Source: Candidatus Caenarcanum bioreactoricola
GTDB taxonomy: Bacteria; Cyanobacteriota; Vampirovibrionia; Caenarcaniphilales; Caenarcanaceae
NCBI GenBank assembly: GCA_001899385.1
Contig: MOYB01000003.1
Location: 183,577 to 215,764, forward strand
Direction of reading: 5' to 3'
DNA length: 32,188 nucleotides
Made by a program: the position numbers and the translations under genes. Positions 807 through 9,534 of this stretch are shown one piece after another. Within the stretch, counting starts at the first letter, position 1. Each line of letters starts with the position of its first letter. The notes beneath the pieces are model-generated. The model was not told the DNA's origin and searched no databases. It saw nothing but the letters and a program-made list of their open reading frames with translations.

Positions 807-1625
807 TTAAAGATTTACTGTTGTATTTGCAAATTGAACTGCTTCAATATCACCAAATAATTTAACTGAACCACTACCATCTCTCATAGATATCTTTGTA
901 TAATCACCATAATCAGTTATTCTTACTTCACTTGAATTGATTCCAGACATTACAAGTTTATCACTTCCTGAACTGTCATATATTGAATCAAAACCATCTC
1001 CTTTTGCATATCTATAAAGATCATTGCCATCTCCACCATTCATCTTATCGTCACCAGTGCCTGCATTTAAGTAATCACTGCCAGTTCCGCCATACAATGC
1101 ATCATTTCCACTATTACCAAATAACGCATCATTACCTTCTTGTCCATAGATAGCATCACTGCCTAATCCGCCATGTATTTCATCTGTTCCTTCATTACCA
1201 TAAATAAGGTCATTTCCTTCTTCTCCATTTATGAAGTCATTACCTATTCCGCCGTATGCAAGGTCAGATCCTATTCCGCAATAGATTCTATCATTACCTT
1301 CTTGTCCATAGAGAAGATCATTTCCCGTTTCACCATATATTAAGTCATTGCCTATTCCACCATAAGCAACATCATTATCTGCTCCGCCATGGATTCTATC
1401 ATCACCTTCTTGTCCATAAATAACATCACTACCTGCTCCACCATAGACAAGATCATCACCTGCTTTTGCATAAATAAGATCATTGCCATCATAACCACAA
1501 ATAGCATCATTATAAATAGTTCCTCTTAATAAATCACTTAAAGAAGTTCCATTAATAATACCAACACCACCAATAAAAACTGGTGCTATTATTTCTTCTA
1601 ATTCGTTTAATTTAAATTTCTTCAT
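807..1625 (-). CDS. RTX (haemolysin-type) calcium-binding repeat protein
   Basis: A 272-aa protein made almost entirely of glycine/aspartate nonapeptides of the GGxGxDxUx type from about residue 40 to 205 (for example GGAGSDVIYGQEGDD and GGIGNDLIYGETGND). These form calcium-binding parallel beta-rolls in proteins exported by type I systems. The last 65 residues are non-repetitive and could carry the C-terminal export signal. The N-terminus (NELEEII, then GG at 19-20) loosely recalls a double-glycine leader, but its spacing does not fit the usual consensus. No N-terminal Sec signal peptide is visible and no enzyme domain is present, so the role (surface layer, adhesion, calcium sensing) is unknown. 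AAGGAG at 1635-1640 with 9-base spacing supports the start. A HlyD-like gene lies 3.7 kb away, but no ABC exporter is in the window. Confidence 0.88.
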   Translation of the reverse strand: MKKFKLNELEEIIAPVFIGGVGIINGTSLSDLLRGTIYNDAICGYDGNDLIYAKAGDDLVYGGAGSDVIYGQEGDDRIHGGADNDVAYGGIGNDLIYGETGNDLLYGQEGNDRIYCGIGSDLAYGGIGNDFINGEEGNDLIYGNEGTDEIHGGLGSDAIYGQEGNDALFGNSGNDALYGGTGSDYLNAGTGDDKMNGGDGNDLYRYAKGDGFDSIYDSSGSDKLVMSGINSSEVRITDYGDYTKISMRDGSGSVKLFGDIEAVQFANTTVNL

Positions 1626-7214: not shown

Positions 7215-7262
7215 ATTTGAAATTATTCATTTGTTATAGTTCCTTTTGAAAGGAGAAAAAAA

Positions 7263-7799
7263 TTGGAGATTAAAAACTATTGTTTATGCGAATTTGAACA
7301 AAACATTCAAATTGGTTCTTTTACTGGTTATGCCAGTATTTTTGGAAATGTTGATGAAGCAAATGAAATTGTTATGCCAGGTGCCTTTAAACAAACCTTG
7401 GAAAAAAACAAAGAAAGAGTTGTACTTTTTCAACACAATCCAGATAAACCAATTGGGAAAGCTTTGTTAACTGAAGATGCAACGGGCTTGAAAATTCTCA
7501 AAGGGGAGTTAAATCTTGACCTTGAATTAGCTAGAGAAGTACAAAGCAATGCTAAAAAAAATATTATTAATAGTTTTTCTATTGGATATAGAGTATTAGA
7601 GGATGATTATAACGAAAATGGAGTTAGATTATTGAAAAAACTTGATTTAGTTGAAATTTCTTTTGTTACTTTTCCAGCAAATAGATCTGCTTTATTAACT
7701 GATATGAAGCATTTTAATACAAATAAGAAACTTATTGAAATAACTAACGAATTAAATAATTTATTAAAAGGAGTAATTAAAGATGAATTCAGGAATTAA
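7263..7799 (+). CDS. HK97-family prohead maturation protease
   Basis: A 178-aa phage capsid protease (U35/S78 type) that cleaves the scaffolding delta domain from the major capsid protein during procapsid maturation. Family signatures are intact: GYASIFGNVD and GAFKQTL near the N-terminus, catalytic His58 in LFQHNPDKPIG, catalytic Ser in SFSIGY (S106, or S104), and acidic E131 in LVEISFVTFPAN. The start is TTG, chosen because GAAAGGAG (7248-7255) lies 7 bases before it and the protein then begins at the normal place. The frame overlaps the capsid start by 17 bases, the usual coupling in phage head modules. No portal or terminase gene precedes it; the upstream gene is a nuclease in a HlyD operon. 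Confidence 0.93.
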   Translation: MEIKNYCLCEFEQNIQIGSFTGYASIFGNVDEANEIVMPGAFKQTLEKNKERVVLFQHNPDKPIGKALLTEDATGLKILKGELNLDLELAREVQSNAKKNIINSFSIGYRVLEDDYNENGVRLLKKLDLVEISFVTFPANRSALLTDMKHFNTNKKLIEITNELNNLLKGVIKDEFRN

Positions 7800-9006
7800 C
7801 GAATTGGAAAAAAAACTTGGTGATACATCAAAGCTTTTAAAGCAATTTCAAGTACAAAATGATCAGCTTGAAAAAAAATATGATGGTCTTTTAAATGAAC
7901 AAAACATAAAACTTGCAAATGTAATTAGTGAAAAAGTTGAACTCAAGAGCAAATTAAAAAGTATAGAAGAATCTAAATTAGTTGAACGTTTAGAAAATCT
8001 TGAACTTCAGGAAAAACGCTTGGGCTTTGGTGCAAATAAAATTGAAAATTCTGTCGAAGCTAAAAAATTTGATTCATGGCTTAGAAAAAAAGGTGGAAGT
8101 ATGGAAGAAATGGAAATAAAAGCTCTTTCTTCTCTTACAAATGCTGATGGTGGTTTTTTTATTCGTCCGTCTTTTTGGTCAAATATAAGTAAAAAAATAT
8201 TTGAAACCTCTGCAATGAGACAAATAGCAAATATTCAAATCATAGGTAATAAAAGTTATAAAGTTCTTGAAGATGTTCAAAGTCTTGATTCTGGGTGGGT
8301 AGGCGAAGGTGGCTCTGTAGCACAAACAAATACTGCTCAAATCAATGAAATTGAGATTCCTACATATAAACAATATGCTTATCCAAAAATAAGTGAAGAA
8401 TTACTTGAAGATTCTGAAGTTAATATTGAAGCATGGTTAGAAGAAAAACTTGCAGAAAAGTTTGCTTGTATGGAAAATTCGGCTTTTATAATAGGTGATG
8501 GAAGTTCTAAACCAAAAGGTATTTTATCGTATACATTTGTAAATAATAATACTTATACAAACGGTAATATAGAATATGTTCCAAGTGGAGTTGCCGCTAC
8601 TATAACAAGTGATTCTCTTATAGATCTTCAAGGAGCACTAAAAGAAATATATCAACCAAGAGCAGTGTTCTTAATGCACAGAACTACTTTTACAAACATA
8701 TTAAAGTTAAAAGATACTGAAGGGAAATATCTTTTTAATGCAGATTGTGATTTAAATAATGAATTCAAATTATTACAAAAACCAGTTAAATTCTTTGCAG
8801 ATATGCCAATAATAGCTTCTGGTGCTTATGCAGTTGCTTATGGTGATTTTCAAAGTGCCTACACCATTGTTGATAGAAAAGAACTTAATATTCTTAGAGA
8901 TCCTTATTTATCTAAAGGATATATTCTTTATTATACAACTAAGCGAGTAGGTGGAGCAGTTAATAATTTTGAAGCTTATAAGGTCTTGAAATTATCTGTT
9001 TCCTAA
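7783..9006 (+). CDS. HK97-fold phage major capsid protein
   Basis: A 407-aa major capsid protein. Residues 1 to about 105 form a charged coiled-coil delta domain, the internal scaffold. The likely maturation cleavage is after K113 (EMEIK/ALSSLTNADGG), the same position relative to the fold as in HK97 gp5. The mature part starts with GGFFIRP and contains the E-loop/P-domain hallmarks SGWVGEGG, IPTYKQYAYPKISEELLEDS and GDGSSKPKGIL, ending in an A-domain strand. AAAAGGAG (7766-7773) lies 9 bases before the ATG. The gene is followed by a double hairpin and terminator, not by connector or tail genes, so the cassette ends here. The reading frame is undamaged. Confidence 0.95.
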   Translation: MNSGINELEKKLGDTSKLLKQFQVQNDQLEKKYDGLLNEQNIKLANVISEKVELKSKLKSIEESKLVERLENLELQEKRLGFGANKIENSVEAKKFDSWLRKKGGSMEEMEIKALSSLTNADGGFFIRPSFWSNISKKIFETSAMRQIANIQIIGNKSYKVLEDVQSLDSGWVGEGGSVAQTNTAQINEIEIPTYKQYAYPKISEELLEDSEVNIEAWLEEKLAEKFACMENSAFIIGDGSSKPKGILSYTFVNNNTYTNGNIEYVPSGVAATITSDSLIDLQGALKEIYQPRAVFLMHRTTFTNILKLKDTEGKYLFNADCDLNNEFKLLQKPVKFFADMPIIASGAYAVAYGDFQSAYTIVDRKELNILRDPYLSKGYILYYTTKRVGGAVNNFEAYKVLKLSVS

Positions 9007-9020
9007 TTATAATAAATTAT

Positions 9021-9042
9021 AGAAAGGTTATTTTAGTCTTTC
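9021..9042 (+). repeat. Hairpin AGAAAG/CTTTCT, first half of a double-hairpin repeat
   Basis: An inverted repeat of 6 bp with an 11-base loop lies 15 bases after the capsid stop and is followed by a T-rich stretch. It matches the minus-strand sequence at 137-160 after ferritin at about 22 of 24 bases. Confidence 0.65.
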
Positions 9043-9066
9043 TATTTATTTTTAATCATACTAACT

Positions 9067-9096
9067 AAGTCCTCTATTTTTAAAGAGGGCTTTTTT
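9067..9096 (+). terminator. Terminator closing the capsid cassette
   Basis: A CCTCT/AGAGG stem with an A/T loop is followed by GGC and six T. It isolates the capsid transcript from the cysteine-rich gene. Its sequence is nearly identical to the ferritin terminator at 77-108 (minus strand). Confidence 0.8.
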
Positions 9097-9186
9097 ATTA
9101 GTTTTTTTAAATCATTAATTTAAGCTTAATTTTTGTAATACATACTGGAGAAGTAAATACTTAAATTATAAAAGGGATTGAAATTT

Positions 9187-9534
9187 GTGGTAGAAAGAGG
9201 AAATATTTGTGAATATCCAGTTTTCAAAGCATGTCCAACAAGAGAAGAAGGCAAGGATGGTTGTAAGTGTACGGGTGAAGGCGCAAGTAAAACATGTGAA
9301 AGAAATATTGCTTTAACTTCTTTTACAGTTCTTGGTGGAAGGGGAAAAGAAATAGACGGAGATAATTATAAATGTTCTATATATTATCCAGAATTTGTAA
9401 ATTCAGAAGATTGCAATCCTTTAAATGACTTATTTAGTTGTAAGGATAATAGTGGTCAAGCTACTGGAGAAGTAAGAGTAACAAGTTATGATTCAGGAGG
9501 TCCAACAGTTTCAGGAAAAGAAAATAGAAACTAG
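9187..9534 (+). CDS. Small cysteine-rich protein, unknown function
   Basis: A 115-aa protein from GTG 9187. I prefer this start to TTG 9178 because AAAGGGA (9171-9177) abuts the TTG but is correctly spaced for the GTG. It has eight Cys (ICEY, KACP, GCKC, KTCE, YKCS, EDCN, FSCK) spread over about 85 residues. No signal peptide or TM is present, and the C-terminus is polar and Gly/Ser-rich. The Cys spacing could bind metal or an Fe-S cluster, or form disulfides, but no known motif fits. It uses a TAG stop. It sits between two terminators, so it is its own transcription unit directly after the capsid cassette. I recognise no family. Confidence 0.65.
   Translation: MVERGNICEYPVFKACPTREEGKDGCKCTGEGASKTCERNIALTSFTVLGGRGKEIDGDNYKCSIYYPEFVNSEDCNPLNDLFSCKDNSGQATGEVRVTSYDSGGPTVSGKENRN

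Follow-up and report, generated by a model that had tools for sequence, protein, structure and literature searches.

Phage-type head, tail and packaging genes scattered through a Caenarcaniphilales-type genome: a candidate dispersed, co-regulated gene transfer agent

A prohead protease gene and a capsid gene overlap one another in a 32,188-nt stretch of the Candidatus Caenarcanum bioreactoricola genome (contig MOYB01000003.1, positions 183,577 to 215,764; hereafter "the window"). Here, we describe the wider gene set to which this pair belongs. Tailed-phage structural and packaging genes are kept in the host chromosome: whole-genome family searches recognised 12 genes by homology, singly or in small groups, at seven loci on six contigs, and a promoter-like motif recurs upstream of them. 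From these features we consider it likely that the scattered, phage-derived loci together build a small, tailed, DNA-packaging particle, i.e., a dispersed, co-regulated gene transfer agent (GTA). With less assurance, though still on the favourable side, we propose that this would be a complete GTA taken apart and rebuilt as a cellular regulon of about eleven loci and sixteen genes with one promoter type. Contig C23, which contains the window, is part of a 1.84-Mb draft genome in 67 contigs (90.8% complete, 1.3% contaminated), certain stretches of which were masked. Comparison by ribosomal protein S2 gave four related records of named genomes at 54–61% identity, three of them labelled Candidatus Caenarcaniphilales or Caenarcanales and one labelled Synechococcales cyanobacterium. 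Because of these S2 relatives, the host is most likely a Caenarcaniphilales-type bacterium, an uncultured member of a non-photosynthetic sister lineage of the cyanobacteria.

The protease–capsid unit in the window has the following features:

7230..7240, plus strand: promoter-like motif TTTGTTATAGT upstream of the unit; its TATAGT core starts 28 nt 5′ of the TTG start codon
7263..7799, plus strand: HK97-type prohead maturation protease (Peptidase_S78; His58, Ser106, Glu131), 178 amino acids (aa), start codon TTG
7783..9006, plus strand: HK97-fold major capsid protein, 407 aa, with an N-terminal helical (delta-like) region and a candidate cleavage site at K113
9068..9096, plus strand: hairpin and T-run resembling an intrinsic terminator, after the capsid gene, read directly from the sequence

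Both open reading frames (ORFs) are open, and they overlap. The protease matches Peptidase_S78 (3.9e-29) and TIGR01543 (1.3e-29), and the capsid matches Phage_capsid (9.6e-68) and TIGR01554 (2e-93) as the single capsid match of the family search in the whole genome. A helical, delta-like N-terminal region is predicted ahead of K113 in the capsid model, and K113 is conserved in at least 90% of 119 aligned capsids. An earlier, sequence-only reading of the window had described an intact protease with these three residues, overlapping an intact capsid gene with a delta domain, a K113 site and a terminator; each of these elements is borne out. It had also called the cassette stand-alone. Within the window this is correct: no portal, terminase or tail gene was seen in the ORF list (the PHROGs scan was limited to six window proteins), and the flanks look cellular, as had been proposed, with an HlyD-like gene and an Endonuc_Holl gene upstream and rpsB-tsf downstream. 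Within the genome it is not, since portal, terminase, connector and tail genes lie elsewhere. Nor did a supposed contrast between strong Shine-Dalgarno sites in the pair and their absence from neighbours prove distinctive; a site was found in 5 of the 12 dispersed genes and in 35 of 177 cellular ORFs. A 118-aa ORF (window 9178–9534), located between the terminator of the capsid gene and rpsB, had no PHROGs, Pfam or NCBIfam match.

The sequence-only reading had proposed a genome search for terminase, portal and tail genes, and all were found, at six other places. The dispersed set is as follows, with library scans covering selected proteins:

C23, window 7263–9006: protease and capsid (Peptidase_S78, Phage_capsid)
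C34, 127521–128660: portal, the single match in the genome (phrog_12, 5.2e-69; TIGR01537, 2.7e-57, over cut-off)
C45, 111802–113130: terminase large subunit (phrog_2, 5.1e-28), the sole chromosomal terminase besides those of two phage contigs
C56, 4389–5548: distal tail protein (DUF2460; phrog_1302, 1.5e-24) and hub (phrog_2048, 3.5e-29)
C56, 7431–8198, 1.9 kb from the distal tail and hub genes: tape measure, 255 aa (phrog_10574, 3.8e-16)
C12, 221170–221958: tail tube (NF047353, 2.4e-13, over cut-off) and a chaperone-like ORF
C23, 119225–122443: tail-tip protein, 1,072 aa (phrog_31, 1.9e-78), single match in the genome
C1, 139188–140089: head–tail adaptor and head-closure protein (PF05135 and PF05521, both 1.5e-10, over cut-offs)

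No internal stop was found in any of the 12 genes. Phage_connect_1 had a single match in the whole genome, over its cut-off; the DUF2460 distal tail protein was a single genome match at 2.5e-5, below Pfam's cut-off; and the tail tube, also a single match, was weak in the family search. The terminase carries what we take to be Walker-A-like and nuclease-like motifs. The loci are solitary between cellular-looking genes, and they form no contiguous self-mobile prophage module. In the sequence surrounding them, we saw neither an integrase nor a replication gene; no integrase family was searched genome-wide.

The evidence for common control lies upstream of these genes. When 10-mers were compared across the eight upstream regions of the units (160 nt, both strands, one mismatch allowed), TGTTATAGTC was found in six of the eight, versus 4.5% of 176 cellular regions. 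Among 200 random sets of eight cellular upstream regions, no 10-mer containing at least three G/C, scored with up to one mismatch, reached four of eight, as against six of eight in the real set. On the sense strand, TATAGT precedes all eight units at no more than 70 nt from the start codon, versus 10 of 176 cellular regions and 51 of 1,097 in a larger background. Over the same distance, the longer form TGNTATAGT precedes six units (0/176 cellular; 1/1,097 in the larger background), and TTTGWTATAGT precedes five units and none of 1,097 cellular ORFs. The opposite distribution is seen for the usual −10 box, TATAAT, with one of eight units versus 56 of 176 cellular regions (321 of 1,097 in the larger background). 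In seven units the TATAGT core lies 28–43 nt 5′ of the start. Co-regulation of the units via the shared motif is predicted from this pattern.

Since the motif was derived from the same eight units, the fair test is prediction. A scan for TTTGWTATAGT covered 1.32 of the 1.84 Mb (72%, including 82 kb of N). It returned ten strict sites, five of them 5′ of known units and five new; four of the new sites precede an ORF, two of these ORFs being supported by homology and two tentative:

C34, 44268–44567: HK97-gp10-like neck protein, 99 aa (matched by phmmer at 2.1e-9 to an ORF of viral contig L111)
C23, 68391–68834: M15-peptidase-like protein, named by reading, 147 aa (2.1e-9 against an ORF of locus L066, around a DUF2460 match)
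C34, 1173–1580: weak NlpC-like candidate, named by eye, 135 aa
C1, 284764–285108: 114-aa protein, with a faint one-to-one similarity (4e-4) to one prophage protein chosen by eye

Viral contig L111 also encodes a related portal, protease and capsid. Loci L064–L066, three further DUF2460 matches, served solely as search target. A 344-aa ORF (L287:118-1149, on C34) lies on the same strand, closely 3′ of the NlpC-like gene, and may be co-transcribed with it.

Several observations weigh against a dispersed, co-regulated GTA. First, the motif is uneven. The core stands just 12 nt 5′ of the annotated start in the portal and NlpC-like units, and the motif forms of the gp6 and portal units are imperfect. 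The loose form (TGTTATAGTC with one mismatch) is unspecific, occurring eight times in the window, where 2.3 were expected, with one occurrence 5′ of the protease–capsid unit. Strict sites are barely over-represented, with ten seen and 5.8 expected from a first-order model; what is non-random is the placement of the strict form. Second, some assignments are weak. The NlpC-like similarity is 0.0014 among seven chosen sequences and weakens to 2.3 or worse when the same proteins are scored within the full set of 11,339 viral/prophage ORFs, in which the 114-aa protein had no phmmer match at E 1. The remaining new site, a strict TTTGTTATAGT on the minus strand at L255:19446 (C1, about 309445), has no ORF of at least 40 aa behind it, and the sequence downstream matched no Rfam family at the gathering threshold. 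The chaperone-like assignment depends on phrog_2115 at 0.0028. Third, features of RcGTA-like GTAs (RcGTA being the GTA of Rhodobacter capsulatus) were not found, which sets the system apart from them. GTA_TIM (PF13547) had no match in this genome, which has a phrog_31 tail-tip protein instead. The bias toward cheap amino acids reported for RcGTA-like GTAs was not seen in carbon per residue, the one measure used; ranked from 1 (cheapest) to 120, the capsid came 120th and the portal and terminase 119th each. This is probably because the genome is AT-rich, which confounds the test. Fourth, the set comes from one genome, and none of four family relatives has the capsid or DUF2460, the two markers searched.

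The absence of both markers from the family relatives also favours another explanation, in which the genes are relics of one or more prophages broken by rearrangement and without current function. Indeed, the dispersal must have come by rearrangement somehow. Decay predicts poorly what is found, since the 12 genes lack internal stops, there is one of each part, and codon usage is host-like. The dispersed genes have a codon fit of 0.404, like the 0.427 of 177 cellular ORFs (p 0.29) and unlike the 0.130 of 25 ORFs on co-binned phage contigs (p 5e-4); the mean G+C content at third codon positions is 0.112 for the dispersed genes, 0.111 for cellular genes and 0.224 for the phage contigs. Moreover, separate loci that each have their own copy of the motif would be unexpected for fragments of one phage late operon. 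We regard functionless relics as quite unlikely. The surroundings of the loci, named by reading translations, are likewise of host type: prmC-like and alpha-glucan-phosphorylase-like genes beside the portal; a bioB-like gene and a small EF-hand-like one, followed by a PPOX-like gene, beside the terminase; genes for an SNF2-like helicase and for an acyltransferase close to the tail tube; nrdD-like/RTX and truA-like genes beside the tail-tip gene; and ribosomal-protein and murF-like genes near the adaptor.

Among solved structures, the nearest relatives of the portal and capsid are those of RcGTA, by a broad margin. A portal profile built from nine sequences, searched against all solved structures, had the RcGTA portal as its best match (7.3e-75), with the next phage at 5e-26; a nine-sequence capsid profile had the RcGTA capsid first (9e-107) and its next match at 1.6e-63. 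Similarly, in Foldseek, the top five matches of the capsid model were RcGTA capsids (38–39% identity), followed by a capsid-forming island and then phages. The model was built from 119 sequences (pLDDT, i.e., predicted local distance difference test, 85) and replaced a useless nine-sequence model (pLDDT 42). Other parts gave less: the distal tail protein matched T5 pb9 at 0.0085, the adaptor matched RcGTA Rcc01688 at 0.52 and no other structure, the M15 and hub proteins had no match among solved structures, and the NlpC-like protein had chance matches alone. In the protein collection, the best-scoring homologs stand at about 42–43% identity for the capsid, 44–45% for the portal and 57% for the terminase, and the set is therefore a distinct lineage. 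All 545 annotated phage records matching the capsid do so at <60% identity. Seven IMG/VR loci bring together related genes for portal, protease, capsid and hub, and this co-located arrangement is likely the ancestral state.

These matches also bear on the possibility, raised by the sequence-only reading, of a protease-matured nanocompartment resembling an encapsulin. The capsid has the HK97 fold that encapsulins share, and no other phage gene was seen in the window. The set as a whole differs from encapsulins in having a protease, portal, terminase and tail genes; the portal and terminase genes, like those for connectors and tail, lie at other loci preceded by the same motif, and the nearest capsids are those of RcGTA, with no encapsulin named among the best 50 of 661 fold matches. 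A nanocompartment is thus hardly credible, and we dropped it. Of that earlier interpretation, the domesticated capsid stands (intact, host-like in codon usage and placed among cellular genes), while the stand-alone cassette and the nanocompartment do not; the alternative it also named, a gene transfer agent encoded in pieces, is the reading that the evidence favours.

RcGTA (Rhodogtaviriformidae) resembles the dispersed set in its kinds of head, neck and tail proteins as well as in having the closest solved portal and capsid, and the dispersed genes fit what we take to be the RcGTA module order. RcGTA has a main structural cluster, whereas none was found here, and the host here is not an alphaproteobacterium. 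The capsid-forming phage-inducible chromosomal islands (cf-PICIs) are contiguous mobile islands, whereas the loci here are dispersed; their capsid is the next best after that of RcGTA by sequence and fold (9gyi). Dispersal itself has precedents. Sections of PMC9662315 place the RcGTA genes at five loci, and sections of PMC9638019 describe GTA genes as often dispersed, with putative CtrA or GafA sites in common among the RcGTA spike, fibre and lysis loci, which is therefore a precedent for common control of separate GTA loci. In Rickettsiales, as in the set described here, phage-type genes lie at several chromosomal places. According to excerpts of the respective papers, Wolbachia has at least six GTA genes and a terminase, which lie at several locations and are described as intact and inherited vertically (PMC9203015), and Orientia has six scattered GTA genes (PMC10732058). 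Here, by contrast, there are 12–14 supported genes, among them those for connectors, a tail tube, a tape measure and a candidate lysis enzyme, in another phylum and in one genome only, and they share an upstream motif, of which those excerpts make no mention for Wolbachia or Orientia. BhGTA/VSH-1 of Brachyspira, as portrayed in parts of PMC9662315, similarly has its sole identifiable terminase gene outside the structural cluster; it differs in having a 16.3-kb cluster, in which only the endolysin gene has a significant phage match. Scattered GTA genes are thus known in Rickettsiales, and the host group, the fuller gene set and the common motif seem to be new. Among the matches listed in searches of the literature on Melainabacteria, Vampirovibrionia and cyanobacteria, judged mostly by title, none describes a GTA in this lineage, and the excerpts of PMC6821227 and PMC10883770 held nothing useful on GTAs in other phyla.

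Among related genomes, the same kinds of genes are arranged differently. Capsid matches were found in 5 of 60 genomes, this genome included; in three class relatives (G051, G026 and G025), the capsid lies in contiguous phage clusters, as judged by reading their ORFs, and the remaining one (G059) is a fragment. An ordinary prophage, of the contiguous kind seen in those three relatives, was rejected for the query genome, which has no such cluster. DUF2460 occurs in 35 of 382 genomes of the class, again including this one, and four genomes of family f12 that were opened have contiguous phage-type clusters, not dispersed ones. A first capsid scan of the genome contig collection found no relative. 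The sequence-only reading had suggested looking for the pair at the rpsB locus of relatives; the listed parts of the rpsB neighbourhoods in four family relatives are without the cassette. In G270, G287, G350 and G353, from another family of the class (loci L057–L063), we noted clusters of tail genes (DUF2460, hub-like and large tail-tip), with two such clusters on different contigs in each of the last three.

The genome bin also contains two phage contigs, C8 and C10, whose terminase genes were set aside on that account. Their presence invites a further explanation, i.e., a functional split-genome virus mobilised by a helper or by a co-binned phage, and the C8 terminase does match the same PHROGs as the chromosomal terminase. 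Against this, C8 and C10 have terminases of their own, the C8 portal is phrog_3753, and the portal or capsid genes of the two contigs (those of C10 named by reading) are unmatched by the Pfam families of the dispersed ones. Their codon usage is unlike that of the dispersed genes, no TTTGWTATAGT site was found in the 25.6 kb of phage contigs examined, and an integrase or replication gene, as noted above, was not seen beside the dispersed loci. A split-genome virus is therefore very unlikely. One part of C8 (L019:3230-5530) has an F-rich translation (...QAEDGIR) beside a duplicated segment, which we take to be Illumina adapter read-through with misassembly.

If the loci do encode a dispersed, co-regulated GTA, the protein families suggest how it might work. 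A host signal would act through a factor recognising TTTGWTATAGT to turn the units on together. Capsid and protease would then form a prohead, cleaved near K113; the terminase would load host DNA through the portal, and a short tail would be added. The tail is predicted to be short because the tape measure has just 255 aa, far fewer than the 600–733 aa (by reading) of the tape-measure-like proteins in the G051, G026 and G025 prophages. The M15 enzyme may help to lyse the cell, a weaker suggestion, and the released particles, by likeness to RcGTA, would deliver DNA into related cells. With its genes distributed among six contigs, the whole set should exceed what one particle of RcGTA-like capacity could hold.

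The same regulon logic would serve a domesticated particle with another job, such as killing competitors or delivering protein without DNA transfer. Function cannot be read from sequence, and the 1,072-aa tail-tip protein could target rivals. However, the terminase, portal and protease have been kept, with host-like codon usage, and to our knowledge tail-only killing particles need none of the three. We judge such an alternative function unlikely. Should the GTA reading hold, this would be, to judge from the literature searched, the first GTA reported for this lineage, and one unable to package the genes that encode it: a virus particle converted into a distributed function of the cell. It would represent an end point of viral domestication, with no cluster left and the units under copies of one promoter-like motif. 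The motif would also supply a rule for finding missing parts, namely a TTTGWTATAGT site just 5′ of a start codon, and, more generally, phage genes that stand alone in small genomes may belong to regulons and not be debris.

Two further features of the genome were noted in passing. On C56 (L021:5645-7429), between the tape measure and distal tail genes and on the opposite strand, lie a small partner gene and an ATPase gene whose N-terminal part has weak RecF/retron-effector-like matches, possibly a defence pair. Lastly, RTX-type calcium-binding repeat proteins, some of them very long by reading, recur in the genome (window 807–1625, L021:11379-16373 and L236:15846-19874).

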